A DNA stretch of 64,000 nt from Sinohyriopsis cumingii. Taxonomy: Eukaryota > Mollusca > Bivalvia > Unionida > Unionidae. Location: the NCBI GenBank assembly GCA_028554795.2, contig CM068828.1:22219436-22283435 (forward strand). The letters run 5' to 3'. This document shows positions 1 through 16,780 of the stretch, in pieces (the stretch's first letter is position 1; each line of letters begins with the position of its first letter). The notes beneath the pieces were generated by a model. The model was not told where the DNA came from. It was given only the letters and a program-made list of their open reading frames with translations, and did no database searches. The position numbers and the translations under genes are program-made.

Positions 1-192
1 TTAACATAAAGGACATCTGCAACATCTTCTTCGTCTTAGGCTTCGTCTAATGGTAGGTCCATAGACTAAAACTCTTTTGAGGCATCCTTGCCTCTCCTCG
101 TAAATCCTACGTATCCATAGGCTTGTGGCGGTCCTATGGACAACTTTCCACTCGGATCGGACATACATCGGTATGTCCGTCCTGAACAACAT
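1..192 (-). CDS. Small basic protein of unknown function, divergent from polB
   Basis: An open frame of 63 codons reads leftward from an ATG at 190-192 and stops exactly at the window edge (TAA at 1-3, reverse strand). The product has a mixed N-terminal part and an Arg/Cys-rich end containing RRSLRRRRCCRCPLC, a composition that suits nucleic acid binding or a condensing core peptide. I do not recognise the family. Support for a real gene comes from its own reverse-strand TATA box at 276-283, back to back with the promoter of the polymerase gene. A GTG codon three codons further upstream also opens the frame, but ATG is the more likely start. It may be one exon of something longer that continues to the left. 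Confidence 0.4.
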   Translation of the reverse strand: MLFRTDIPMYVRSEWKVVHRTATSLWIRRIYEERQGCLKRVLVYGPTIRRSLRRRRCCRCPLC

Positions 193-275
193 CGTTGACA
201 CAAGCGTAGAAGATTACACATCGGTCCACATGTTGAGGCGCCGAGAACAAGTGAAGGAATGCAGTGAACTGCACT

Positions 276-450: not shown

Positions 451-3148
451 ATGACGGAAACTCAGAAAACGATCAATTGGGGTGCACCAGCAGTGGAGAC
501 CGCCCAAGGGAACCCGGACTTACTTTCAGAAGAGGTGAATTGGGATTTTGTGGATTTTCTTACCTCGCAAGAATTTGTTCCGGAACCTTCGTCACCTTCA
601 TTACCGCACGTGGAGAATTTTAGACAGAGATAGAAAGAATTGGAGAAATTTATACAACAGCAAAAGGAAGCGGAACGAGCTTTTCTACCACAGCAACAAC
701 AGCAAGAAGAAGAGGTAAGAAAAAAACAAGAAGGAGAAGAAGCAGCAAGATTCCCGGAGGACGTGAAAAAATCTTTCGGGGACCGAACACGCTAGCCGAT
801 TTCGCACAATGGGTCTTTGACCCCATCGACAAGACGTGGAGCCAAGAGGACATCGAACGTTACCGAGATTGTCATCGTCATGCCACGGTGATGGCTCACA
901 ATTTCTCCGGATACGATGGACAGTTTCTTTTGAGGTACTATACAGAACATGGCACCGACCGTCCTAAAGTGATTTTGAACGGAGCCAAAATCATTTTCAT
1001 GCAAGTGGGACAAGTGCAGTTTAAAGATTCGATGAGCAATTTGGCCATGCCTTTGAGTCCAATGCCTAAAACGCTTGAAATGACAGGAATGGCTAAAGGG
1101 TACTTTCCACACTTTTTCAATACGGAAGCCAATCAACACACCGTTCTACCTCATTTGCCTGAGGCTCACTATTACGACCCTGACAACATGCGTACCGAAC
1201 AACGAGAAGCTTTCTACGCTTGGTACCAGGCTCACGCCTCGGACCCTTTCGACTTTCAGGAAGAAATGCTAAAGTATTGTCGTTCCGACGTGGACATTTT
1301 ACGGCGTTGCTGTGGAAAATTTCGAGAACTGTTCATGGAACACGGAGGGGTCGATCCTTTGAAAGAAGCTTGCACCATTGCCAAAGCGTGTTCCTTAGTG
1401 TACCGCCAACGATTCATGCCTGAAAACATCGTGGCTGTCATCAGTCCTCAAACGACCAACTATGTCAAACGTCAATACTCGGTCAAAGCCCTACGCTGGT
1501 TACATTACTTGTGCGACAAGGAAGACAAGTGGATTCAGCATGCCTGCAACGGAGGGGGCGAAAAGACCATCGGAACGCATTCGGTCGGTGGCTGGGACTT
1601 AGAAAACCCCAAGATCGTGAACGAGTTTAACGGTTGCTTATTTCACGGATGCCCCGTCTGTTACCCTGACCGTGGCACTAAAAATCAGCTTTTACAACGA
1701 ACCATGGAAGACTTGTACCAGGCCACTTGTCAGCGACGCCTAAAGTTAGAACAGGAAGGATACCAAGTGGTGGAAATGTGGAAAACACGAGTACGATCAC
1801 CGTTTGAAAACCGATCCCGAGTTTAAACGTCTCGTGGAAAGCTACCAGTTCATGGACCCGCTGAACCCGAGGGATAGTTTGTACGGAGGAAGGACCAATG
1901 CCACCTGTTTGCTGTACCAAGCATCGACTTGAAAAACATTCGACAATACGAAGGCTTGATCAAGTGCAAAGTTTTGCCTCCCACGAACCTATACCATCCC
2001 GTCTTAGCTCACCATTGCCAAGACAAACTGATGTTTCCTTGTGCCGTACTTGTGCCGAAACCTGCAACCAGGACCAACATTGTCAGCACACCCAGGAAGA
2101 ACGGGCTTTGACGGGGACGTGGGTGTGCGTAGAATTGTTCAAAGCTCTGGACATGGGATACCAACTGTTAGAAGTGTACGAAATTTGCCACTTTCCCAAG
2201 ACAGAACAATACCACAAGGGTGACCCCACGCAGAAAGGCATTTTCGCAGACTACGTGAATGCCTTTTTGAAACTAAAGCAAGAAGCCAGCGGCTATCCGT
2301 CCTGGTGTCACACTCCCGAAGACCAAATACAACTCAAAGAGAAATACTGGGCACAAGAAGGCATCTCTTTAGATCACATCGAGAAAAACGAAGGCTAGCG
2401 ATCGTTTGCCAAAGTGATGTTAAATTGCTTGTGGGGAAAAATGACACAACGACCGTGTTTACCCAAGACGGAGTATTTGACAGAACCTTCCCGCTACTTC
2501 CAGATGATTCACGACAAAACCAAATTCATGAAACAAGTGGACGTCGTTCGCGAAAATTTGATCTTAGTCAATTACGAAGAAGATCTGGACTTTGTAGAAG
2601 CCAATCCCTTTGGAAATGTCATCATTGCGGCTTACATGACAGCTTATGCTCGCTTAAAATTGTACGAAGCTTTAGAACTATTAGGGGAACGTGTCCTGTA
2701 CTTTGACACGGACAGTTGCATTTACATCCATCACCCGAGTCAACAGCACCCTGACATCGAAGGAGACCGTTTAGGAGCCTGGACAGACAAGCACCCCGAC
2801 GACAACATTTTAAGTTTCGTCAGTGGTGGTCCTAAAAATTACGGCTACGAATATCGGGACAAACAAGGAGAAGTGCACACGAAGTGTAAAGTGAAAGGAT
2901 TGACTCTGAATTATCTGACCAGTCGAGTGGTCAACTTTGGGGTATTGAAAGAAGCCTTGCAGTCTAGAGAGGATGAACACTTTAAAGTGACCACCTATCA
3001 GCCCAACAAGATTGTACGTTTACCCACTCACCACATCGTCAGTCGACCCTTGGAAAAAGTCTATCAAATCGTGTACCAGAAGCGAGTGCGGCTTCCCAAC
3101 CACTTTACTTTGCCGTATGGACATGTCGGTATAAAACATTGGCTGTAA
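451..3148 (+). pseudogene. polB: Protein-primed DNA polymerase type B (pPolB), broken
   Basis: This would be the replicase of the element. Clear family signatures are: exonuclease II (AHNFSGYDGQFLL, from 894), exonuclease III (YCRSDVDIL, about 1275), the Polinton-type FNGCLFHGCP (about 1627), the YGGRTNAT box (about 1879), motif B (AKVMLNCLWGK, about 2408) and motif C (LYFDTDS, about 2698), with GPKNYGY and KVKGLTLN near the end. The N-terminal 451-795 stretch is Gln/Glu-rich and only tentatively part of the gene; exonuclease motif I is not found. Damage: TAG at 631-633, frame changes near 780, 1783 and 2037, and TAG at 2396-2398. At about 1921 the YGGRT box joins directly to sequence that normally follows motif A, so the metal-binding Asp of motif A and its SLYP neighbours are absent. 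It cannot encode an active polymerase. Confidence 0.93.
3130..3136 (+). promoter_or_regulatory. TATA box of first BIR gene
   Basis: TATAAAA lies inside the last codons of the polymerase gene and 42 bases before the ATG at 3172. This matches the habit of this element of placing a promoter in the tail of the preceding gene. Confidence 0.4.
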
Positions 3149-3171: not shown

Positions 3172-3500
3172 ATGACTTCGCCACAGCAAGAATCGAGTGA
3201 GAAATCCAGGGATAACTCCAAGTTCAAACCCTACCATTTTCCGGTCTTCTTACCTGACTATTGTGATTGTTCCCGTTGATTGGAAACGTTTCAAGCATGA
3301 CCTACGGATAGGGAAGGATTACCTTCTTCGAATGTTTTAGCTAGAACAGGATTTGTCTACTTGGGACCTGAGTCTGGATTGGGATGCGAAGTACAGTGTT
3401 TCGCTTGCGGACTGAAGTTATGAATGGATCTATGTATCTATAAAGATTCAGCTATTTTGGAACATACTCGATAGTCTCCGCACTGCCCTTACCTTTATAT
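3172..3500 (+). pseudogene. BIR-domain (IAP-like) protein, decayed first copy
   Basis: The start at 3172 opens a 35-codon frame ending in PYHFPVFLPDYCDCSR, which resembles the segment ahead of the BIR domain in the next gene (DEYSFPVRLSEYCNF). After frame changes near 3280-3337 the BIR core is readable: ARTGFVYLGPESGLG, then CFACG with the first two zinc-binding cysteines, LEHTR with the histidine, and SPHC with the last cysteine. Two stop codons interrupt the core, TGA at 3421-3423 and TAG at 3472-3474; both fall where BIR domains often have tryptophan, so each fits a G-to-A change of TGG. BIR proteins bind caspases or their activators and block apoptosis. No RING finger follows. It reads as a dead duplicate of the gene at 3679. 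Confidence 0.75.
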
Positions 3501-4737: not shown

Positions 4738-5190
4738 ATGGATGCTTTGCTAGAGAACATTCGTGCTTTGCCTGTGGAGTTGAAAGAACGCATTTACCGA
4801 GAACTGGTCAAAATACAAGTGAAACGTAAAGAACAATTGCATCCGTTACTTCACCGGTGTTTGAACCACTGGTACCTGAATGCTATACAAGGACTGATTC
4901 AGTTGAAAGTGTTCCATTGGACAGACATTGATCAACGATCCCCTGGTTTTAAAAAGGATTGGTTTGCTATTGATGATTCTATCTACTACATTGTAAGCTT
5001 ACTGCATCGAATTCCAGAGGAAGAGTTCACGAATTACCAACATCTTTTAAGCAATGTCAACTTAGTGAAAGAGGAAACTTCTGAACGAATTGTAATGTGT
5101 AAATTAGTGATTAAACGATATAAATTCGACACTGAAGTAAAACCTTTTCTGTGCAAACGGTACATTTCTTGTGTCAGAAAGAGGATTTAG
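4738..5190 (+). CDS. Small helical protein, second tandem paralogue, intact
   Basis: An uninterrupted 150-codon frame starts in the context CCTATTCATGGATGC, repeated almost exactly before the next gene. The N-terminal 45 residues (MDALLENIRALPVELKERIY and a following basic helix ending near HWYLN) are nearly identical to the next protein; the rest has diverged, with shared landmarks such as a YQHxL motif and a Glu-rich stretch before ETS. No signal peptide or membrane segment is apparent. I do not recognise the family beyond a possible F-box-like helix at the start. The open frame in a provirus with many broken genes suggests recent function, or simply chance in a short gene. Confidence 0.6.
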   Translation: MDALLENIRALPVELKERIYRELVKIQVKRKEQLHPLLHRCLNHWYLNAIQGLIQLKVFHWTDIDQRSPGFKKDWFAIDDSIYYIVSLLHRIPEEEFTNYQHLLSNVNLVKEETSERIVMCKLVIKRYKFDTEVKPFLCKRYISCVRKRI

Positions 5191-5202
5191 TATGACCTAT
5201 TC

Positions 5203-5694
5203 ATGGATACTTTACAAGAGAACATTCGTACTTTGCCTGTGGAGTTGAGAGAACGCATTTACCGAGAGCTGGTCAAAATACAAGTCAAACGTAAAGAACA
5301 GTTGCATCCGTTACGTCATCAGATCTTTAACCACTGGTACCTGAATGGTATAAGAGAAGAGATTCGTCAGAAATTGTTTAAGTGGTCAGACCTTGTTCAA
5401 TACTTCCAGGCCCCCGATGATCCACGTGTTCATAATTTTGGTTACTTCGAGATTCACATAGTGCAACGCATTGAGGAAGACAAGTTAAAGGATTACCAAC
5501 ATATTTTACGTGGAATCTACTTAGAGGAAGAGGAAACTTCTAAACGAACTTTGAAGTTTAGGTTGCAGTTTGGAGCATTTAGACTCCCCACTGGAGAAAG
5601 AAGATCTCGGGCTAGAAAGTACGTATATTGTTTCCGAAACAAAGAGAGTATAAAAACAGGTTGCCATGCCATGACTTTTATCACATGTGATTGA
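5203..5694 (+). CDS. Small helical protein, third tandem paralogue, intact
   Basis: This 163-codon open frame lies only 12 bases after the previous gene and shares its leader and first 45 residues, so the pair arose by a tandem duplication of about 465 bases. The shared block is MDTLQENIRTLPVELRERIY, a KIQVKRKEQLHP segment and an NHWYLNGI motif; downstream the proteins differ, this one ending in a basic region with RRSRARKY. The last 15 codons overlap the TATA box of the following gene (5649-5656). Function is unknown; a role in redirecting host protein turnover is possible if the N-terminal motif really is F-box-like. Confidence 0.6.
   Translation: MDTLQENIRTLPVELRERIYRELVKIQVKRKEQLHPLRHQIFNHWYLNGIREEIRQKLFKWSDLVQYFQAPDDPRVHNFGYFEIHIVQRIEEDKLKDYQHILRGIYLEEEETSKRTLKFRLQFGAFRLPTGERRSRARKYVYCFRNKESIKTGCHAMTFITCD
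5649..5656 (+). promoter_or_regulatory. TATA box of the tail-anchored protein gene
   Basis: TATAAAAA lies inside the 3' end of the third tandem gene. It is placed to start transcription near 5680, just before the open frame that begins around 5687. Confidence 0.45.
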
Positions 5695-6516: not shown

Positions 6517-7197
6517 ATGGCTACCTCTGCTGTCTCTGCTCCCTCTTCCTCCACTGTCAAAGTCATCGACGAACACTTAGATCGTGCCAGTTGGGAGGCT
6601 TTGTATCTTCGCCATCCCTTTAACATGCTCATTGCCGGACCTAGCGGTTCAGGCAAAACCGAATTTGTCAAACGTTTGATCGAACACAAACATCATTTGA
6701 TCGATCGGCCACCTCAGCGGATCGTGTGATGTTACAAAGAGTGGCAATCGGCGTACAGCCTCTTGCGAGAAAGTCAAGGCGATTCCATCGTGTTTGTGGA
6801 AGGCATTCCTAAAGAAGACGACGGCATCGTCTCTGACTCCCGTCAAACCCATTTGGTCATTTTTGACGACATGTTAGGAGAAGACGAAGAAGAAATTAAA
6901 TTGTGGTTCACGCGAAAAGGGCATCACCGTAATGCCAGTGTCGTTTACATCACCCAAAATTTGTTTCAACAAAGTAAAGCCCATCGCACCATCAGTCTCA
7001 ATGCGCATGACGTGGTCTTGTTTAAAAGCCCTCGAGATAAATCGCAAGTGTAAGTCTTAGCCAAACACTTAGGAACGCCTTGGCTGACTCAGGAGTACGA
7101 CGATGCCACTCAAACTCCACACGCTTATTTACTCGTCGATTTGAAACCTACAACCCCCGATGATTTGCGATTTCGTACCCACTTGTTTCACCACTGA
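6517..7197 (+). pseudogene. FtsK/HerA-family virion packaging ATPase (A32-like), two stops
   Basis: This enzyme powers genome packaging into the capsid. Visible are a Walker A P-loop (AGPSGSGKTEF, about residue 40), the family box KEWQSAY shortly after, Walker B (LVIFDDML, about residue 118), and the polar sensor region VYITQNLF followed by the RDKSQV segment. About 226 codons from 6517 to the TGA at 7195-7197 is the usual size for Polinton ATPases. One continuous frame is interrupted by TGA at 6727-6729, where the family has tryptophan, and by TAA at 7051-7053. There is no frame shift. The two isolated nonsense changes indicate relatively mild decay compared with the polymerase. Confidence 0.92.
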
Positions 7198-7273: not shown

Positions 7274-7306
7274 CCTCAGAAACTTTTCGTCTCACACAGT
7301 TTGTAC

Positions 7307-8272
7307 ATGACGTCTCTTCAGTCGCATCTTCCCGTCAAATTGATTCGTGCCTTGTATGGCATCAGTCGAGAAAAAAATCCACAAATAAGAGCTCATGTCT
7401 TAGAAGCTAGTCTCAGAGAAGTCTTACGATGGTTCACGGTGACAGCATGTCAATTACTACAAGGGATCATTCAGTTTCCTCATCAAATCAAACGCTTTTT
7501 TGATGTGGAAGTTCATGACGAGCAAATGCAACAGTGCTTGGATACCCATGGCAAATATGACATAAAAACCTCTGGCACAAAAAGTCAAAAGTACACCACC
7601 TATGACTTGTTCATTCCCCCAGGCTATTATTTTAGTGGTCAACATTTGGTGAGCACCATAGCCTCCAGGTTTAATGTCGTGTTTATGAAAGCTTTGGAAA
7701 ATTTCAAAAAAAGTGTCACCATGGAATACCACAAAGCAGCTCGTCGCTTCTTGATGAAATTTGACGGGAGTAAAATCGTGTCGATTTTATTTTGTCCTGA
7801 ATTGTTTGACATGTTGGGCGGAGACATGGACATGAGAATGGCCATGATCAAGAAAAACGAATTACCAATCATTTACGACAACGAGTCTTTTAGCAAGTTA
7901 TTTCGTGCCCCGGTAGAACAGAACCAAGGACTGAATTTGATATTTGTGTACTCTGATGTGGTTGAGTGCAACGTGGTGGGACACACCTCTGTGCCGTTAC
8001 TGCGTGTCATTCCTTTCAAAGTGGATTCTGCCACGAATGCTGAAGAGGAAAGTGGAAACACTTACCACGTTCACCGCGAATTTGTACATCCTCTCTATTT
8101 ACCTGTCAGTAAGTCTTATTTGGACACGGTCAACATTGCTATAAAAGGAGATCTGGGACAAAATATTCCATTCACCAAAGGAAAAGTCATTTTCGAAAAC
8201 GGTTCTCTCACGAGTTGTAAGTTATGTATCCAGTGTACCGAGGGGTTGCTCGACAGCGAGGACACGGTTTAG
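7307..8272 (+). CDS. Penton-like minor capsid protein
   Basis: A long open frame from ATG 7307. The identification rests mainly on the C-terminal block: PLYLPVSKSYLDTVNIAIKG followed by GQNIPFTKGKVI, which matches the conserved end of Polinton and adintovirus minor capsid (penton base-like, single jelly-roll) proteins. It also rests on position, between the ATPase and the core protein, directly ahead of the major capsid gene. Protein length is about 305 residues, normal for the family. In the expected family pattern the chain ends soon after GKVI; here the reading frame instead runs on through unrelated residues to 8272, 49 bases into the next gene. A stop (TAA 8218-8220) in another frame lies three bases before the next ATG, so a small indel near 8190-8200 has probably altered the end. 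Confidence 0.82.
   Translation: MTSLQSHLPVKLIRALYGISREKNPQIRAHVLEASLREVLRWFTVTACQLLQGIIQFPHQIKRFFDVEVHDEQMQQCLDTHGKYDIKTSGTKSQKYTTYDLFIPPGYYFSGQHLVSTIASRFNVVFMKALENFKKSVTMEYHKAARRFLMKFDGSKIVSILFCPELFDMLGGDMDMRMAMIKKNELPIIYDNESFSKLFRAPVEQNQGLNLIFVYSDVVECNVVGHTSVPLLRVIPFKVDSATNAEEESGNTYHVHREFVHPLYLPVSKSYLDTVNIAIKGDLGQNIPFTKGKVIFENGSLTSCKLCIQCTEGLLDSEDTV
8140..8148 (+). promoter_or_regulatory. TATA box of the core-protein gene
   Basis: TATAAAAGG lies inside the penton-like gene, 84 bases before the ATG at 8224. Confidence 0.35.
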
Positions 8273-8649
8273 GAGATATATTAAAATCAGCCTTTCGTTC
8301 GGTGGCCCCAGTCTTGAAACCGATGGTTACACGCGGATTGCATACCTTGAAAGATGTCGCACTGACACAAGGCAAAGAATTTCTCCAAAATGTCATCATC
8401 GACAAACAAAATCCCAAAGAAGCCTTCATGAGGGCAGGCAAAAATGTCTTGCTGCAAACGGGTAAAGACCTTTTGAGCCGACGAGTAACACCTATAAATG
8501 CCCTGCACGCTACCGAGTCAGGCATTCAGCAAGGACAAGGCAGAAAGAGACGACGAAGAAAACACCCTTTCACCAGACTTCACACGTCTTAAGCTAGAAA
8601 GGCAAAGAAAAGAAGAACCGTTCGAGACTTGGACGTTTTCGATTATTGA
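8224..8649 (+). pseudogene. pX/pVI-like minor core protein with premature stop
   Basis: The product starts MYPVYRGVARQRGHGLGDIL, a Gly/Arg-rich amphipathic beginning typical of small virion core or membrane-lytic proteins next to the capsid genes of Polintons and adenoviruses (pX/pVI type). A helical middle and a strongly basic stretch (GRKRRRRK) follow. A TAA at 8590-8592 ends the frame after 122 codons, but the same frame continues with a further basic tail (RKAKKRRTVRDLDVF) to a TGA at 8647-8649, 13 bases before the major capsid ATG. The continuation keeps composition and spacing, so I regard the TAA as a later nonsense change; programmed readthrough is less likely. Likely role: binding packaged DNA or helping capsid entry; this is inferred from position and composition. 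Confidence 0.65.
8493..8499 (+). promoter_or_regulatory. Possible TATA box for the major capsid gene
   Basis: TATAAAT lies within the core-protein gene, 170 bases before the capsid ATG at 8663. The distance is long, so a read-through or shared transcript is equally possible. Confidence 0.25.
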
Positions 8650-8662
8650 GAAATTAAAAAAA

Positions 8663-9983
8663 ATGATGCACCGAGAATCTTGCGCTTGTTCCAAGTCGGA
8701 ACTGGAATTGTTTGCCATGCCACCCACTATGATGACGATGCAAGAATCCCAGTGGGTGGAATTTCATCCCGTCTCCTCTTTGACGGATTCCGCTCCCATC
8801 GAGTTTGAAATCAAAGGACAACCCGAAGATTACATCGATCTGAATAGCAGTTACCTGCATTTGAAAGTGAAAGTGATCGAACCACCCAACACTAACATAG
8901 ACAATGATGATGTAGTAGCTCCCGTCAATAATTTCATGCATTCCTTGTTTAGCGAAGTGGACTTGCACTTGAATAACAAACTGGTCAGCAGCAGCATGGA
9001 TACTTACCCTTACCGTGCCTACCTGGAAAATCTCTTGACGTACGGAAAAGAAGCCAAGAACACTCATCTGGATGCTTGCGTCGTATGGAAACCTGACAAA
9101 GCGACTAAGTTCAACAGCATTACAGTTGCTGGGGATGCTCAAAATACAACGGGATTTGTAGAACGACGAACGAAAATTCATCTAAGTCGTAGTTTAGAAC
9201 TGATGGATGGCTTCCATCTAGACATGTGGTTACAAGAAAAGTATTTTCTGAACGGGGTGGATATCCGCTTGAGACTGAATCGCAGCAGTGCCGCTTTCCA
9301 TTTGATGGCTGCTGATGGTTCCACTTACAAAACCAAAATCGAAGAAGCCAGACTCTACGTGCGTCGTGTGGAAGTGTTACCTAAACTGGGAAACGACGTC
9401 AGTCAGACGTTGAGCAGAACGACCGCCAAGTATCCGATACGAAGAGTGGAAGTGAAAACGTTCACCATTCCTGCTGGACAGCGATCCATGATCGAAGATC
9501 ATCTGTTCCAAGGACAGTTACCCAAATGTTTAATCCTTGGTATCGTCAAGAATTCAGCCTTCAACGGAGCCTACCATGAAAATCCTTTTGAGTTTCAACA
9601 TTACAATGTGTCCAAGATTGAAGTCAGTCGCGATGGCAAGACCTTGTGTACCCGACCCTTGGAGCCTAACTTTGGTGCCGCGAAGAATTATTTGAGATCG
9701 TACTTGTCCCTGTACGAAGCTACCGGTCAGTTAGGAACCAACACCAGTCACGGTATTACGTACGAGGATTATGTAGGAGGCTACGCTTTGTGGGCTTTTG
9801 ATTTCACTCCAGACCAAGGCAGCGACGAGGGACATTTCCACCCTATAAATTCCTGCCAGATTCGTGTGGAAATTCAGTTTGCGAGTGCACTGCCCCCAGA
9901 GAACAGTGAACGTCATCCTGTATGCAGAATTTGACAATACCATAGAAATCAACAGTTTGAGAGAAGTCATTCTAGATTATTAG
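8663..9983 (+). pseudogene. Major capsid protein, double jelly-roll fold
   Basis: This is the hexon-like building block of the icosahedral shell. Family landmarks in order: SKSELELFAMPPT near the start, EFEIKGQPEDYIDL, PVNNFMHSLFSEVDLHLN, TYPYRAYLENLLTYG, NGVDIRLRLNRS, and HPINSCQIRVEIQFASALP near the end. The ATG pair at 8663/8666 is preferred because conserved residues begin right after it; the frame is open further upstream to 8498, but that overlaps the core-protein gene. The frame is uninterrupted for more than 400 codons. A single frame change at about 9898 leads the first frame to stop at 9932-9934, while the other frame carries the expected acidic C-terminus to TAG 9981-9983, six bases before the next ATG. 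Length of about 440 residues is close to the family norm. Confidence 0.93.
9844..9850 (+). promoter_or_regulatory. Possible TATA box for the C-C-HPSQ protein gene
   Basis: TATAAAT inside the capsid gene, 139 bases before the ATG at 9989. Confidence 0.25.
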
Positions 9984-10519: not shown

Positions 10520-11002
10520 ATGGATACCTGGGAACTTTATTACCTTTTGAACCACAGTTCGTACACGGCTTCTTGGAATCCTGTCGTCTGTGCTAAAGAT
10601 GAACTCCCTCATCGCAAACCTCAAGACCATCTAGCTTATGTGATCAACACGGACGACAGTCATCTCCCAGGAACCCACTGGGTAGCCGTCTACTTTCCTC
10701 AAGAAGGATGTGTGGAATATTTCGATTCGTATGGATTGCCCCCTTTGGAAGACGATATCATTGACTTTATGAGAAGAAATGCTCAGACCACCGGATTCAA
10801 TAATGTGAAATTACAAGGCACGGATTCCTTGGTGTGTGGACAATATTGTGTGTATTTTCTGCATCATCGCAGCCTGGGCTATTCCTTAGAACATTTAGTG
10901 ACTCATTTTGATCCTGGTTCTTCTTCTAGAAACGATGTGAAAGTAGATCAATGGTTTTGTGACCATTATGCTTATCTTTTGTCTCAAAATTGGGAAACGT
11001 AG
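10520..11002 (+). CDS. Adenain-type maturation cysteine protease, intact
   Basis: The enzyme would cleave capsid and core precursors during virion maturation. The 160-residue frame is complete and carries the adenain (C5)/ULP1-like triad in order: His in GTHWVAVYF (about residue 52), the acidic residue in EYFDSYGLPP (about 70), and the nucleophile in VCGQYCVYFLHHR (Cys at about 113, preceded by the oxyanion Gln/Gly context). Length is a little shorter than adenovirus protease (about 200) but usual for Polinton proteases. The start is 21 bases after the preceding gene. All catalytic positions are kept, so this product could still be active if expressed. It lies last in the structural block. 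Confidence 0.92.
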   Translation: MDTWELYYLLNHSSYTASWNPVVCAKDELPHRKPQDHLAYVINTDDSHLPGTHWVAVYFPQEGCVEYFDSYGLPPLEDDIIDFMRRNAQTTGFNNVKLQGTDSLVCGQYCVYFLHHRSLGYSLEHLVTHFDPGSSSRNDVKVDQWFCDHYAYLLSQNWET

Positions 11003-11322: not shown

Positions 11323-11360
11323 GGGATGTTTTCCTTCACATCCGCGCTTTGACTTTAAAG
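11323..11360 (+). promoter_or_regulatory. Promoter box copy 1 of the tail cassettes
   Basis: GGGATGTTTTCCTTCACATC followed by CGCGCTTTGACTTTAAAG. The same block recurs at 12084 and 12885, each time about 50 to 70 bases before the start of a small gene, and at 12820. Here the TATA box seems degraded to TTTAAAG, and an initiator-like TCAATTCATTC is found at about 11393, just before the ATG at 11414. Conservation of position across the cassettes suggests a transcription factor site plus core promoter. Confidence 0.6.
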
Positions 11361-11413
11361 CCGGGGGTAGCCTCCAGTCTAACCATCCATTGTCAATTCA
11401 TTCTCCTACGAAG

Positions 11414-11772
11414 ATGTGCTCCAGACTAGCTAAGCTAAACGAAGCCTACGTGAATTTGCATAGGGTCAGACGATACCGAAGCCAGAAGAAATAGAGAATG
11501 TGAGAATGTTAAAAGTCACTAAAGACCTGATAGAAGAGCTCTTCAGAGAAGAAGTGAACAGGGAGAAAGAAGAATGGACAGAGAAGTACAGACTTCAGAA
11601 ACAACAGAGAGAGCAGCAACAGCAACAAGAACAGCAGCAGCAGCAACCTGAACCTGACAGAGGCTTTGTCGATTGTCGTATCGACACCAAAGAGTTCTTC
11701 TTCTCTTTCCGAAGAAGCAGACCTATCGTCAGAAAGTCTATCGTCAGAGGACGTCGCATTCTTAGAATATAA
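11414..11772 (+). pseudogene. Cassette gene 1: charged coiled-coil protein with basic tail
   Basis: The ATG at 11414 opens a 26-codon frame ending in a basic stretch (RVRRYRSQKK) at TAG 11492-11494. A different frame, open from about 11497, continues with VTKDLIEELFREEVNREKEE, a Gln-rich run (QQREQQQQQEQQQQQ), then an Arg-rich end (SFRRSRPIVRKSIVRGRRIL) to TAA at 11770-11772. The close fit of the two parts suggests one gene with a frame break near 11492. The heptad-like helix resembles cassette gene 3. Function is unknown; an acidic/helical body with a basic tail could bind nucleic acid. A histone-type hairpin starts 38 bases after the stop, a spacing typical of histone mRNAs. Confidence 0.5.
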
Positions 11773-11809
11773 AAGATCGCCCTAGCTTCAAATTCGCACA
11801 CAAAAAAAC

Positions 11810-11848
11810 AGCCCTTTTCAGGGCTACCCTAATCTCTAGAAAAGAAAT
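11810..11848 (+). terminator. Histone-type mRNA 3' stem-loop and purine-rich downstream element, cassette 1
   Basis: AGCCCTTTTCAGGGCT (11810-11825) forms a perfect 6-bp stem with a TTTC loop, is preceded by an A-rich stretch (CAAAAAAAC) and followed by ACCC. AGAAAAGAAAT (11838-11848) lies 12 bases downstream, where histone pre-mRNAs have the U7 snRNA-binding element. This is the complete layout of a metazoan replication-dependent histone 3' processing signal (SLBP hairpin plus HDE). No AATAAA is nearby. Confidence 0.85.
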
Positions 11849-12031
11849 AACAATCGATTGCCTATAATAAGTTAAAAAATAGAAGTGCGTGTATAAGCAC
11901 ATGAATTATTTATCTTGCTTAGAAAGTGTGTGTGAGTGTGTGTTTGTGCCATTGTAAGCACTCACGATTTGTTTAATAAAATTTTTTTAGAATAGTAATG
12001 GGTAGTATAAAAAAGTGAGTGAGTGTTTCTT

Positions 12032-12124
12032 TTAGGTCCGCGCGTTGTTTGGTTATAATCTAGGTAAGATAAATTTTGTTTTAGGGGATGTTTTCCTTCA
12101 CGTCCGCACTTTTAGTATAAATTG
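12032..12124 (+). promoter_or_regulatory. Promoter box copy 2 with TATA
   Basis: A partial copy (GGTCCGCGCG, about 12036) and an ATCTAGGTAAGATAAATTTT spacer lead into the full box GGGGATGTTTTCCTTCACGT at 12084, then CCGCACTTTTAG and TATAAATT (12117-12124). The ATG at 12172 is 48 bases beyond the TATA box, with TTCATTCA as a likely initiator at about 12152. The spacer plus box recurs before cassette 3. Confidence 0.7.
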
Positions 12125-12171
12125 AAAATCGCTTGGCAGTCTAGCTACCCTGTTCATTCATTAACAAGACA

Positions 12172-12483
12172 ATGAATAGCAGAATAAGCATACTTCTTGA
12201 ACTCCAGATGCATGTGAAATACGCCAGGCGCCTGTTAAATGAACTGGCAGCAGAGGCCATAGTAGAAGAGGGAAGAATAAAGAAGGAAGAGGAGGAGAGA
12301 AGACAGAGGGAAGAGGGGGAAAAGAAAATAGGAGAGAGGATGTCGTACAATATTCCAGAGACAGAGGAATGGGGCGCTGACGCCAATCATCATCCCTCTG
12401 CGCTCCCAGTCAAAAGAAGAGTGAAAGGAGATTGGAGTCGGAGATGTGTGTGTGGTACCAGGCCTGGAAGGTGCCGTCATTAA
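12172..12483 (+). CDS. Cassette gene 2: small charged protein, intact
   Basis: A complete 103-codon frame at the expected distance after the promoter box. The first half is a predicted helix with leucine and many Glu/Lys/Arg residues (for example EEGRIKKEEEERRQREEGEK). The end is basic with cysteines (KRRVKGDWSRRCVCGTRPGR). It shares architecture rather than clear sequence with cassette genes 1 and 3: helical charged body, basic tail, 3' histone-type hairpin. I do not recognise a family. The TAA at 12481-12483 is 26 bases before the hairpin. DNA or RNA binding is a guess from charge alone. Confidence 0.5.
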   Translation: MNSRISILLELQMHVKYARRLLNELAAEAIVEEGRIKKEEEERRQREEGEKKIGERMSYNIPETEEWGADANHHPSALPVKRRVKGDWSRRCVCGTRPGRCRH

Positions 12484-12509
12484 CCAGGTGCCCTGGAGTT
12501 CTTAAAAAA

Positions 12510-12547
12510 AGCCCTTTTCATAGCTACCCAAACCTTTAGAAAAGATA
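12510..12547 (+). terminator. Degenerate histone-type stem-loop, cassette 2
   Basis: AGCCCTTTTCATAGCT (12510-12525) keeps the left arm and the TTTC loop of the cassette 1 hairpin, but two bases of the right arm no longer pair. AGAAAAGATA (12538-12547) is still at the right distance for a purine-rich downstream element. It looks like a mutated copy of the same processing signal. Confidence 0.65.
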
Positions 12548-12819
12548 TAGTAATCTATTTGCCAATGTGTGTATGTAGAGTAGTGTGAATATAAACACTG
12601 ACTCTTTTTTTCCTAGTGTGAGTGTATGTGTTTGTGTTTGTAAGCGCTCACGTACGTTTGTGTGGATAGTAGATTATTGGGTTTTGTAAGAGCTTAAGTT
12701 GGTTTGTGTGGATAGTAGATTTGGGTTTGATTTTAATGCTTTGCATGTGTAAATGGTAGATTTTGGGTTTGTTTATTGTTGCTTCACGTATGTGAATAGC
12801 AGATAATACGAGAAAAGTA
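12548..12819. other. GT-rich spacer between cassettes 2 and 3
   Basis: Contains imperfect TGTGTGAGTGT runs and a repeated GGTTTGTGTGGATAGTAGAT segment, as does the spacer after cassette 1 (11860-12030). No coding frame was found. The shared spacer type supports duplication of whole cassettes. Confidence 0.4.
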
Positions 12820-12923
12820 GGGGATGCTTTCCTTCACGTCCGGGCGTTTTAAGTGATGATCTAGGTAATATAAATTTTGTTTCAGGGGATGTTTTCCATC
12901 ACGTCCGTGCTTTAACTATAAGA
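12820..12923 (+). promoter_or_regulatory. Promoter box copies 3a and 3b with TATA
   Basis: Two copies of the box stand in tandem: GGGGATGCTTTCCTTCACGT at 12820, then the ATCTAGGTAATATAAATTTT spacer, then GGGGATGTTTTCCATCACGT at 12885 followed by CCGTGCTTTAAC and TATAAGA (12917-12923). The ATG at 12973 is 50 bases beyond. The doubled box is the clearest evidence that this is a repeated regulatory unit. Confidence 0.7.
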
Positions 12924-12972
12924 ACCCACAGTGTTCGTCGTTCGCACCATTCTACGGAATAACGGAAAGAAA

Positions 12973-13573
12973 ATGGTAGCTGTATCTGACCTGTTCAACA
13001 ACTTAAACGAAACATACTATTGGATGATAGACAGTGAATATGTAGTGGAAAGAATTGAAAGAGAATGGAGGATAAGAAACAGTCTGGACTTTGCTAACAC
13101 TAAAAGTAGCCAGGGAGAAGATAGAGGAGTTAATAGAAGAAGAAGTGAAGAAGTTGAGAGGGTTTATTAATCCTGCATATGTCAAAATTGGAATGTTAAA
13201 AGAGGCCTTGGATAATGCTGTAGAAGTAAGGTTCTTTTGGAAGGAATGGTGAAATGGTTAGATTGGCCCTTTGTCAAAAGAGGTCTGCAAAAGCTGAAGA
13301 AAGCTGAAGAATTAATAAGAAAAGTAATGGTGGAAAAAGTAAAGAAGATAAAGGAGACATGGAGTAAAGAAAGAAAGGATGAGGAAAACAAAAAGAAACA
13401 GGCAGAGTCTGAGAGGCTGAATCAGAATTGGATAAAAGTTCAGGAAAAGTTTAGAGCTCTAGGCCATCCTGACTGGATGCCAGAAAAGGAGAAAAAGAAG
13501 ACAGGAATAGTGACAAAAGTGAGAAGAAGTGGAAGTGTTAGAAGAAGAAGAAGAAGAAGAAGAAGAAACCCAA
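12973..13573 (+). pseudogene. Cassette gene 3: long charged coiled-coil protein with Arg tail, frame broken
   Basis: Coding-like sequence starts at ATG 12973 (MVAVSDLFNNLNETYYWMID), changes frame near 13095-13110 and again near 13225-13235, and runs on in the 13237 frame to an Arg run (about 13540-13570) encoded by an AGA/GAA triplet repeat. It contains two related helical blocks (VAREKIEELIEEEVKKLRGF and KAEELIRKVMVEKVKKIKET), each similar to the helix of cassette gene 1. The whole is rich in Lys, Glu and Arg, with almost no Cys or Pro. The original stop is uncertain because the last frame passes through the hairpin. Function is unknown; a DNA-condensing or scaffold role is conceivable. Confidence 0.45.
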
Positions 13574-13574
13574 A

Positions 13575-13615
13575 GGCCCTTTTCAGGGCCACTCCAATCT
13601 CTCGAAAAGAGATAG
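13575..13615 (+). terminator. Histone-type mRNA 3' stem-loop and downstream element, cassette 3
   Basis: GGCCCTTTTCAGGGCC (13575-13590) is an exact match to the general histone hairpin pattern (6-bp GC-rich stem, TTTC loop), with CCCAAA before and ACTCC after, as in metazoan histone genes. GAAAAGAGATAG (13604-13615) lies 13 bases downstream in the place of the U7-binding element. This is the best of the three copies. Confidence 0.88.
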
Positions 13616-13673
13616 ACTTTCAATTGCCTACCCTTTTTTATTTTTTATATTTTTTAAAAAAACAAAAAAATAA

Positions 13674-13883
13674 TCCCATGTTAAATTCCCCTTGTCCCTA
13701 GAATTGTTTTTTTTCTCCCATGCTAAATTTCCCTTGTCCCTAGACTGACCCAAAATAGATTCCCATGTTAATTCCCATTGTCCCCAGAGTGCCGGGCCAG
13801 TTTTCCCCATGTTAAATTTACATAGTCCCCAGAGTGCCGGGACCCTGTTTTTAATGGTAAGTCCCATTGTCCCTAGGGTGCCC
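13674..13883. repeat. Subterminal degenerate direct repeats at the right end of the provirus
   Basis: Four to five imperfect units of about 45 bases share CCCATGTTAAATTCCC, a TTGTCCCTAGA or GTCCCCAGAGTGCCGGG core and a T-rich spacer. They close the element after the last cassette. Subterminal tandem repeats are common in linear DNA viruses and Polintons, so they may be part of a terminal repeat whose partner lies left of the window. Confidence 0.55.
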
Positions 13884-13889
13884 CCATTC

Positions 13890-14664
13890 ACTACTGGTGT
13901 TATATGGCGCCAAGGATGCTGTCGGCACTTTCAAAAAGTACCTTAAGCTTGAGCAGGAGTAAATTCAAGAGATGCTTTATTATCCATATGAGGTCTTAAT
14001 TCATGGAGACGACCACAACCCTCATCCATTTTTAAGCCACTCTCTGCCGCATCCGCGGCAATGTACTCGCCCTTGGAGCGATGAAAAAGGCACGAGATCA
14101 CAGTCAATCCGTGGTATATGAGCTCACGACTGCAGTCACGAGCTATTGCGAAATTCATGGTAAAGATTTCCACGAGGAAAGTGCTTGCATCGAGAAAATC
14201 TATTACGTTCAGTTCTCTGGCCGTGGATTGCATCTCAGCATGGTACTTATAGAGTCATGTTGATCAGTAATATCACAACAGAACACAAAATCTGGTCAGG
14301 TAGATGTGCACTTTACGAGAGCAATCTTCAGCTATAGAGAAGAATATTGAGGTAAGATTATAGATGTTCTTTTGAGCTGAGATTGTGGACGTAGAACTGA
14401 TATTTTGGGATATGCAATGATAGAGCTCAGGGTTGGATTGGAGGAAGATACTGGTTTTCTTCGGCTGAGCGACAAAAGCATTGGGACCAACGGGTTTGCA
14501 GCTAATAAGGGGCTGTTGAGGAATCCTTCGGCAGAATGGGAAGGACGGGCCATGCTTGGTGGCTTTTTGAGCATTCGACAGAGCGGAGGGATCGAAGACA
14601 CTCTGTGCTAGTCAACTGGACATGTTCCGTTGTTAAATTCTTCAGTATCACAACTTGAGTGAAA

Positions 14665-14668
<4 letters not shown>
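13890..14668. other. Junction region, no recognised gene
   Basis: An open minus-strand frame of 96 codons (13943-14233, with EYIAADAAESGLKMDEGCGR) and a minus-strand open stretch at 14332-14601 have natural-looking composition, but I recognise neither. The second lies where the next exon of the transporter gene might be expected, yet its translation does not resemble the family. The provirus boundary may fall in this stretch rather than at 13.89 kb. Confidence 0.3.
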
Positions 14669-14757
<89 letters not shown>

Positions 14758-14791
14758 ATATATATGTATATATATATACATATATATATAC

Positions 14792-14863
<72 letters not shown>

Positions 14864-14976
14864 ATGTATATACATGTATATCTATATATATATGTATATC
14901 TATATATATGTATATCTATATATATGTATATGTATATGTATGTATATGTATATGTATGTATATGTATATGTATGTA

Positions 14977-15043
<67 letters not shown>

Positions 15044-15107
15044 GTATGTATGTATGTATGTATGTATATATACGTGTGTATGTATGTATGTATGTATGTA
15101 TGTATAA
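14669..15107. repeat. (TA)n microsatellite grading into TATG/TATC variants
   Basis: Long pure TA runs interrupted by CATG, TATC and TATG variants, ending in TATG tetramers. The long Tyr-Ile 'proteins' that can be read here on both strands are artefacts of the repeat. Confidence 0.97.
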
Positions 15108-15399: not shown

Positions 15400-16780
15400 T
15401 TGAAAATTAATAATTTGTAACCATATTTGATTTGGATTCTGGAATGTCCAGGAAATTTGCCTTTGTTTAACTTTATGCAAAGATAATAATCACCTTATTC
15501 TAGAATTAAAACTATCGTTTGATGTATACATTTAATTTTAACTTTGTGAGTGATAGGTATGAATTTATTCACAAAAACAAATTCAAATTTTACTCCATGA
15601 ACATCAATCAATTGTTTATCCTTTAACACACTGATCCATTTTATTACCAATATTATGATTTTAGCCAGCACAGCTTTCTCTGTCAGTGTCTTCATTCGCG
15701 CCATGATTTTCACCCATTCTTATCTTGCAGTATGAAGCCAGTGGAAGGGCTGATAAGTGAACACAGTTATTTTACTGACTGTTTTAGGGTTAAAGAAACA
15801 TGGACTAGAAAACATAACCCCATTCCTGAGACTGTAGATAAAGACAGCACATGAGTGGTCATAATTATTTTATTGAGTGTTTAAGGATATAAAGAAGAAA
15901 AAAAAACATGGACAAGAAGAAATAAATCCATTCCTGAGATTGTGAATAAAGACAGCACGTGAGTGATCGTAATATTTTTGGAAAGTGTTCCAATGATATA
16001 AAAAAAAGACAGGGACAAGAAGAGATGATTGCATTCCTGAGGTTGTCGATAAAATCAGCACAGTGTCTTTTAGTATAAAATGTATGTCACTTGTAAAAAC
16101 AACAGTTGCCTCCATTCAAATTCCCTGCAAAGCCAACAATTTGCATTCTTTAGTTGCTTGCAATACCGGCCATTGGTGTTCCTTAGTAGCTTCCAAAGTC
16201 GGCCATATGCGTTCTTTAGTCGCAGAAATGAGCATTGAAATTAACGAAGGTCTCGGTCATTCCGTTGTTGGACTTCTACACATTTGCCTCAAGCGGCCTC
16301 TTACGGGTAGTTAGAATATTTGACTATGAAGGGAAATGGGTTTGCAACAGCAGGTCATCACTTCAGTAACTTATTTAATGGGACCTAAGAAAATTGTTGT
16401 TTTGGACAGGTGGCTGCCCATATCCAGTGAGGAAGATTTGAAAAAGAGAATTTATCTGGCACTGTTAATCTAATAAAAAGTTTGAGCTGAATTTGTCTCT
16501 GAAAGGTGTTCAAAACAATGACCAACATCAATGGATGTCTTAACAAATTCAAGATTCACAAGTTGAACGGTTTAGCTATTTAATGATGAGATTACAACAA
16601 CGTATCGACAAAGCTGTATAACCAATGATTAGACGAACGGAAATTATGTGTATTGTTATTTTTGTTTTTCTGACCTTAATGTAAACATTTCAATCCCAAA
16701 TTTAATTTAATTTCCCATTGTGTATTTAGATCGCTTTTTTAAACAGCAATCTAGTTCATCAATATATTTCATTATATTCA
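15400..16780. other. Intron of transporter gene B, no other gene seen
   Basis: AT-rich sequence with about three loose copies of a 110-base unit (15760-16070, 'GACAGCAC ... TGAGTGGTCATAAT ... AAAGA'). Nothing coding is recognised. Confidence 0.4.

Follow-up and report, generated by a model that had tools for sequence, protein, structure and literature searches.

Terminal genes of an endogenous Polinton-type virus family in Sinohyriopsis cumingii are probably built and expressed as host-style histone genes

The closest described counterparts of the genes considered here are the replication-dependent histone genes of animals, whose mRNAs carry no poly(A) and are produced in S phase (PMC5011920, accessible text) and whose 3′ ends are formed where SLBP binds a stem-loop, U7 pairs with a histone downstream element (HDE) and CPSF73 cuts between the two (PMC7026596, accessible text). 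Here we describe a 64,000-nt stretch of the genome of the unionid bivalve Sinohyriopsis cumingii (contig CM068828.1, positions 22,219,436 to 22,283,435), called the window, whose first 13.9 kb are a broken copy of a Polinton-type element with small genes at its ends. Position numbers are those of the window, and loci numbered with an L, like the whole-genome searches (G000), belong to the same 2.9-Gb host genome. To our knowledge, 3′ ends of this type are considered to be all but restricted to histone genes. On the comparisons set out below, we put at about 80% the probability that the copy belongs to an endogenous virus family of Polinton/adintovirus type in which the small genes at the ends have the make-up of host replication-dependent histone genes and are expressed as such.

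With metazoan replication-dependent histone genes, the viral genes share a 6-bp stem, a TTTC loop, an HDE at the host spacing, a short gene and a hairpin close past the stop, and those of the right end also share a promoter box with host H2B, H1 and, on the other strand, H2A. They differ in being dispersed, in lying within a virus-like element and in that the five products tested carry no histone domain. The element itself resembles adintoviruses and Polintons in its PolB, rve integrase, candidate capsid, protease and ATPase-like genes, its length of about 20 kb and its terminal repeats, but the accessible parts of two accounts of these viruses describe no histone-type 3′ ends (PMC11071296, PMC11071308). 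The first of these, which in its accessible text defines adintoviruses by a PolB with an N-terminal OTU-like domain and an integrase with a chromodomain and mentions an adomavirus “Histoid” gene with remote similarity to histones, has 0 occurrences of “stem-loop” and two of “histone” (PMC11071296). A sequence-only reading, which first pointed to the right-end hairpins, knew of no description of such ends in Polintons or adintoviruses. At the level of genes we likewise found no account, in a literature search that did not cover most subscription papers; the statement has to be amended in that the accessible part of PMC12220804 counts, without comment, six histone stem-loops in a collection of polinton-like viruses and virophages. 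That collection is similar in having Rfam histone stem-loops in polinton-related genomes. It differs in that the part seen gives a bare count among many classes of non-coding RNA, absent from cryptophyte polinton-like viruses and with no gene context, HDE, U7 or promoter, whereas here we find a recurring five-gene design in an animal genome. Finally, a virus RNA that uses host SLBP is comparable in the use of this protein, which our model also predicts, but the RNA feature concerned is a frameshift element and not a histone-type 3′ end.

Histone-type hairpins on the terminal genes

Repeats mark three cassettes at the right end, a 56-nt family with three copies and a 37-nt family with four (at 11323, 12085, 12821 and 12886), and each cassette has the order box, gene, hairpin, HDE:

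11323..11344, plus strand: promoter box of cassette 1, 21/22 to the reference copy; TTTAAA at 11354, CATTC at 11399
11506..11772, plus strand: open frame of cassette 1, 88 aa, basic C-terminus; start uncertain
11810..11825, plus strand: histone-type stem-loop 1, perfect 6-bp stem, 37 nt past the stop; RF00032 29.0 bits
11838..11845, plus strand: HDE AGAAAAGA, 12 nt past stem 1; element as in host H3, H4 and H2B
12085..12106, plus strand: promoter box of cassette 2; TATAAA at 12116, CATTC at 12155
12172..12483, plus strand: open frame of cassette 2, 103 aa, basic C-terminus
12510..12525, plus strand: histone-type stem-loop 2, two right-arm mismatches; decayed in the window copy
12538..12545, plus strand: HDE AGAAAAGA, starting 12 nt past hairpin 2
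12821..12842, plus strand: first of two promoter boxes ahead of cassette 3
12886..12907, plus strand: second promoter box ahead of cassette 3; TATAAG at 12917, CATTC at 12948
12973..13574, plus strand: gene of cassette 3, split across frames in the window copy, open through the hairpin
13575..13590, plus strand: histone-type stem-loop 3, perfect, at the inner edge of and within the terminal repeat; its 16 letters equal the host H2B stem-loop
13604..13610, plus strand: HDE core GAAAAGA, 13 nt past stem 3

The three hairpins stand exactly where the sequence-only reading had placed them, and the purine-rich element that it described 12–13 nt downstream is present at each. The observation is thus confirmed, and it extends further than that reading described. 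Of the three, hairpin 3 (stretch 13570–13615) passes the cut-off of 34 bits of the Rfam Histone3 model (RF00032; 35.9 bits, E 9.6e-7), and it is the sole match above a curated cut-off in the window when all 4227 Rfam families are scanned. Hairpin 1 (stretch 11805–11849) falls below the cut-off with an E of 3.4e-4, and hairpin 2, with its two broken pairs, gives no match up to E 10. No further RF00032 match up to E 10 exists anywhere in the window, and hence no such match follows the core genes (polymerase, capsid, protease) of this copy. Within the window alone the signal is weak, as the hairpin 16-mer with three mismatches has 6 matches and 4 of 100 shuffles reach 6, so the strength of the case rests on genome-wide counts. 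A frame upstream of that of cassette 1 stops at 11494, so this gene may be broken in the window copy; the gene of cassette 3 is intact in L017, where it forms a 192-aa frame.

Two features lay beyond the view of the sequence-only reading: that host histone genes share the repeated promoter box, to which we return, and that the left end has a further pair of hairpins, on these genes:

1..201, minus strand: left outer gene, extending past the window edge; its counterparts in relatives end in a histone-type hairpin that points outward
451..633, plus strand: left inner gene, 5′ part only; the 3′ part and its hairpin are apparently missing in the window copy

By comparison with L014, the left outer hairpin lies before the start of the window. 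L014, a left end, has two divergent genes with an arginine-rich 77-aa frame and a Q-rich 183-aa frame, and a hairpin at the end of each. Across the five viral genes the distance from stop to hairpin is 37, 26, 18, 24 and 26 nt, compared with 27–38 nt in host histone genes. Over the final 40 residues, the five frames (77–192 aa; the start in cassette 1 is uncertain) carry net charges between +5 and +12, and none has a Pfam histone domain match at E up to 1, in agreement with the earlier view that the products are not core histones. With their basic tails the products may have nucleic acid or chromatin as their target, the weakest step of our explanation.

A pattern of the hairpin followed after 6–14 nt by GAAAAG has 54,552 exact matches in the genome and 0 in its reversed control; the hairpin alone has 58,345 and its control 11, so that 93.5% of hairpins carry GAAAAG. 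Host H2B and H1 genes also fit the hairpin patterns and probably account for a few hundred matches (more than 100 histone repeats were scored). The counts reflect the amplification of one element group and not independent origins. Individual positions cover the first 100 places in each of the 54,552 hairpin-plus-HDE, the 58,345 hairpin and the 34,449 promoter-box matches, and the layout was followed in the first of these sets. There, GAAAAG starts 13 nt past the stem in 95 places and 14 nt past it in five, and the outer stem pair is G-C in 60, A-T in 37, a mismatched A.C in three and G.T in 0; the pair types track gene position, which points to few events. The recurring unit consists of an outward hairpin, an inward one about 1.1 kb on, 13–17 kb of other genes and, after these, three tandem hairpins, two of the A-T and one of the G-C kind. 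Full five-hairpin units of 19.5–20.2 kb form five separate groups in these first 100 places, and many other groups lack one or more hairpins. If every element had five hairpins, the genome would hold some 11,000 element equivalents, a rough figure because many are partial. Judged by the 54,552 hairpin-plus-HDE sites, several per cent of the genome may consist of this element group.

A genome-wide Histone3 search scored 75 of 589,472 candidates, all above the cut-off, and the 30 of these that were cut out are all ends of the element, 12 right and 18 left (L027 is placed only by shared upstream sequence and its match to L075). Related copies in this genome do carry the hairpins. Each locus was selected by one hairpin, which leaves the neighbouring hairpin as an unselected sample; Rfam finds it in 10 of 12 right-end loci, at 30.0–31.7 bits and so below 34, and in five of the six left-end loci tested (of 18), at 26.3–39.2 bits, with three above 34. 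For comparison, host histone hairpins score 35.0–39.4 bits, viral copies selected by the same model 43.5–45.6 and unselected ones 26.3–39.2.

Block identities were calculated for 13 left inner cassettes and for 10 of the 12 right-end cassettes, L017 and L025 being excluded because their hairpin lies outside the cut. Conservation differs along the module: pairwise identity (left inner/right-end) is 0.953/0.925 in the stem-loop and 1.000/0.971 in the HDE core GAAAAGA, and 0.712/0.715 in the spacer between them, with 0.949/1.000 for the ACC after the stem, 0.949/0.778 at the HDE edge and 0.756–0.964 in the other flanks. Beyond hairpin and HDE, viral and host 3′ flanks have no significant similarity (z ≤2.6 in 25 comparisons), and the module follows five genes per complete element, so it is not captured histone spacer. 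The sequence-only reading had named two observations that would speak against it, a lack of histone-type hairpins in related intact elements and an origin as captured host histone-cluster spacer, and neither was found in the copies examined, all from one genome. Searches of viral contigs for relatives gave 0 matches to the hairpin-plus-HDE pattern, 0 to the capsid, 0 to the polymerase and 0 in a capsid alignment, which does not refute conservation in other hosts. A wider hairpin pattern matched three viral contigs, which were dropped as they had no Rfam support.

Host histone genes, a shared promoter box and U7-like loci

The host histone genes are arranged in tandem, in units of about 8.3 kb with the order H3-H4-H2B-H2A-H1, all on one strand; the H1 protein resembles that of Mytilus and oyster. 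Their hairpins are GGCCC-TTTTTA-GGGCC (H3, H4), GGCCC-TTTTCA-GGGCC (H2B, the same 16 letters as window hairpin 3), GGCCC-TTTTAA-GGGCC (H2A) and GGTCC-TTTTCA-GGACC (H1). The HDE is CTAGAAAAGA, 10 nt past the stem in H3, H4 and H2B and 11 nt past it in H1, and CCGAAAAGGA, 12 nt past it, in H2A. All three window sites have an HDE that matches those of the five host genes at a fixed distance.

The 22-nt box of the viral right-end genes has counterparts in L064, a 9.2-kb stretch of host histone genes, where it matches at 20/22 upstream of H1, at 19/22 upstream of H2B and, at 3434–3455, at 18/22 upstream of H2A, there on the minus strand and opposite to the gene; the next best match in L064 is 14/22, and the best in the window from 16000 on is 15/22. 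The box pattern GATGTTTTCCWTCACGTCCG, which the host H2B box fits too, has 34,449 matches in the genome and 0 in the control. A same-strand hairpin with HDE lies within 1.5 kb downstream of 48 of the 57 boxes in the first 3.06 Mb, an opposite-strand one of 0, and the figure for random points is 2.75%. In all three window cassettes a TATA-like site stands 31 nt from the box start, and CATTC, which we take to be the histone cap-site motif, follows at 62–76 nt; in the host, counted likewise, H2B has TATAAA at 54 and CATTC at 87, and H1 has TATAT at 30 and no CATTC. By its letters, then, this box is newly recognised here as common to viral right-end genes and host H2B, H1 and H2A. By eye, the divergent promoter of the left pair (L014, 1031–1248) carries TATA-like sites on either side, a TGACGTCA and several inverted CCAAT motifs (ATTGG), with no histone box; the host H3 promoter, also by eye, likewise has CCAAT-like motifs.

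Candidates for the host U7 RNA came from a second search pattern (56 matches against 25 in the control; nine stretches fetched), in which three loci form one consistent hairpin family and look like a divergent U7 snRNA: L087 and L088 on one contig and L089 on another. In each, TCTTTTCAAG-TTTCTCTAG is followed by two bases and then by a perfect 6-bp hairpin. The anti-HDE 5′ segment and the Sm-like site were contained in the pattern and the hairpin was not, and all three loci have TCTTTTCAAGTTTCTCTAG with the 6-bp hairpin. TCTTTTCAAG is the exact reverse complement, over 10 nt, of CTTGAAAAGA, the HDE of many viral copies. Pairing with the L089 segment gives -10.5, -8.7 and -8.5 kcal/mol for the window HDEs and -6.8 to -14.0 for host HDEs. 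An earlier candidate, L031 (Rfam RF00066, 29.3 bits, below cut-off), was rejected for lack of fit between its 5′ segment and the host HDE. A first U7 pattern had 23 matches against three in the control, and of the 20 loci cut out, eight were integrase genes (VFSKFVW codons) and the other 12 were dropped.

The Polinton-type element

The remaining genes and the right end of the window copy are as follows:

888..3148, plus strand: type B DNA polymerase in broken pieces; PF03175, E 4.5e-14, on 888–1823
6517..7053, plus strand: packaging-ATPase-like gene of P-loop type, fragmented; the first piece (70 aa) matches Pox_A32 at 21.7 bits, cut-off 22.8
8498..9934, plus strand: candidate for the double jelly-roll major capsid protein, 735 homologues
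10520..11002, plus strand: cysteine protease, adenain-like; matches S273R in the PDB at E 9e-5 and Pfam C5 below its cut-off
13566..13788, plus strand: right terminal repeat, as far as compared; 186/211 aligned letters equal to the L014 left end

Among the 120 listed of the 735 homologues of the capsid candidate, the informative names are F54H12.2-like, from oysters, and the rest are unnamed or hypothetical; the F54H12.2-like name presumably marks Polinton capsids. The candidate has no match in the PDB, and neither the polymerase region 2414–3145 (no match) nor the frame 7301–8272, considered for the minor capsid protein (no significant match), is recognised by Pfam. An integrase was not found in the window copy by tblastn with one open frame of L078 or by eye among the open reading frames. 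The relative L068 carries an rve integrase (36.1 bits, cut-off 32.6) with window-like capsid and ATPase-region DNA on both sides, and it is one of three among eight integrase loci with DNA like the window viral genes within 1.5 kb.

The terminal repeats are inverted. Left outer and right outer ends of different copies are equal at 208/222, 69/72, 121/127 and 162/201 letters in four pairs, the inner edge of the repeat lies 8–9 nt ahead of the hairpin when the ends are oriented outward, and the right repeat of the window contains degenerate 42–45-nt tandem repeats from 13674. Also within the element, the tandem frames 4738–5190 and 5203–5694 are paralogous (85% over 208 nt) and start with MDALLENIR and MDTLQENIR; the first has no Pfam match. 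Just beyond the element, a long TA/TG microsatellite at 14655–15107 is the source of many sub-threshold mir-297 and mir-3149 matches, and at 15792–15989 there is a 90-nt direct repeat, 80% identical, with copies 108 nt apart.

Proposed mechanism and competing explanations

The terminal genes carry, in host form, the sequence features of the histone pathway that were examined, and we infer that their messages are processed in the same way and are hence limited to cells in S phase. Each gene is short and ends 18–37 nt before its stem-loop, and those of the right end have the histone promoter box of the host and, in most cases, a TATA-like site. We envision that host RNA polymerase II would transcribe these genes together with histone genes. 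SLBP would then bind the viral hairpin, the U7 small nuclear ribonucleoprotein (snRNP) would pair with the HDE and CPSF73 would cut between them, giving viral mRNAs without poly(A) that are made and kept in S phase. Such a limit would place expression mostly in dividing, germline and early-embryo cells, where an element that replicates as DNA and is inherited vertically would gain most.

Taken further, these features suggest, at somewhat better than even odds, that a whole virus lineage put its terminal genes under the host histone programme, with the 3′ end on all five and the box on those of the right end. These genes would form a poly(A)-independent S-phase class, expressed in germline and embryo apart from the capsid and replication genes; the basic products would perhaps be chromatin or DNA-packing proteins on the histone clock; the module of about 57 nt would have been copied from gene to gene; and host histone promoters and virus would have exchanged the box, in one direction or the other.

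Several observations weigh against these proposals. The unselected hairpins of the right end all score below the Rfam cut-off of 34, and the unselected hairpin was not found at L004 and L020 (right) or L002 (left), three of the 18 loci tested. The copies are young, and among the left inner cassettes the stem-loop (0.953) is less alike than the 55 nt upstream (0.964), so the argument from constraint rests on the contrast with the 6-nt spacer. The five modules did not arise independently of one another: the outermost two are part of the terminal repeat (208/222 letters in one left/right pair), and the left inner and right outer modules agree in 53/57 letters. This agreement begins 3 nt ahead of the hairpin and stops 55 nt past the hairpin start, which indicates that the 3′ module passed as one piece between genes that differ in coding sequence. 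Basic tails are not unique to the terminal genes, as the last 40 residues of six other viral frames have charges of 0 to -4 in four and +6 and +7 in two. The left-end gene pair has no box at the four loci examined, and an AATAAA at 11975, 150 nt beyond hairpin 1, would permit poly(A) ends or serve as a fallback.

The processing machinery adds to these points. On L087–L089 the Rfam U7 model gives 17.9, 15.1 and 13.8 bits (E 0.29–3.4), far below its cut-off of 34, and no promoter element common to these loci and three U2 loci was found, so that they are only U7-like candidates; the comparison with the 5′ end of host U7 that the sequence-only reading proposed thus yields a match, exact over 10 nt in many copies, to a candidate below the Rfam cut-off. 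Ten of 30 viral HDE sites pair more weakly than the weakest host gene, the other 20 being at least as stable as that site; the Rfam model that picked the 30 seems to favour A-runs at the HDE. SLBP was not found with PF15247 or a typed SLBP domain, a search that had no working control and to which an intron-split gene could be invisible, and we draw no conclusion from it.

Much of this would be expected if an ancestor had merely taken up a host histone 3′ end, and perhaps the promoter, which then spread by amplification with no present function: host and viral hairpins and HDEs are nearly identical, the copies are young with flanks 0.756–0.964 identical, the modules within the element are copies of one another, and some hairpins have decayed (window hairpin 2) or were not found (L004, L020, L002). 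We nevertheless consider such passive capture improbable. Complete elements have five modules, all in sense orientation and 18–37 nt past the stop in the five genes measured; hairpin and HDE have been kept while the spacer between them varies; box and hairpin are paired on one strand in 48 of 57 cases; and similarity to the host does not extend significantly beyond hairpin and HDE.

We give little credence to the idea that the hairpins act as DNA or as plain terminators, that is as cruciforms, as sites for a terminal protein or the integrase or as transcription stops at the ends. All of them do lie near element ends, two of the five within the terminal repeat at its inner edge, but three lie outside it, and a DNA site would require neither the strand of the gene nor an HDE, whereas the recurring class combines the histone TTTC loop with an HDE at a fixed distance that matches host HDEs and the U7-like loci. 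A shade less probable still is a decoy role, in which tens of thousands of copies absorb U7 snRNP, SLBP or histone transcription factors and alter histone supply, with the genes secondary. The 54,552 exact sites and 34,449 boxes in one genome would suit it, but most copies are probably silent, and with only about five sites per virus genome the trait is unlikely to owe its origin to such an effect.

If expression of the terminal genes as histone-type genes is borne out, a DNA virus family with histone-type 3′ ends on several non-histone genes, and the histone promoter box on those of its right end, would represent a new way of coupling expression to S phase. It would also explain why viral messages could be missed by poly(A) RNA-seq. 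The family would further provide tens of thousands of natural variants with which to dissect the rules of SLBP and U7 recognition beyond the usual model animals.

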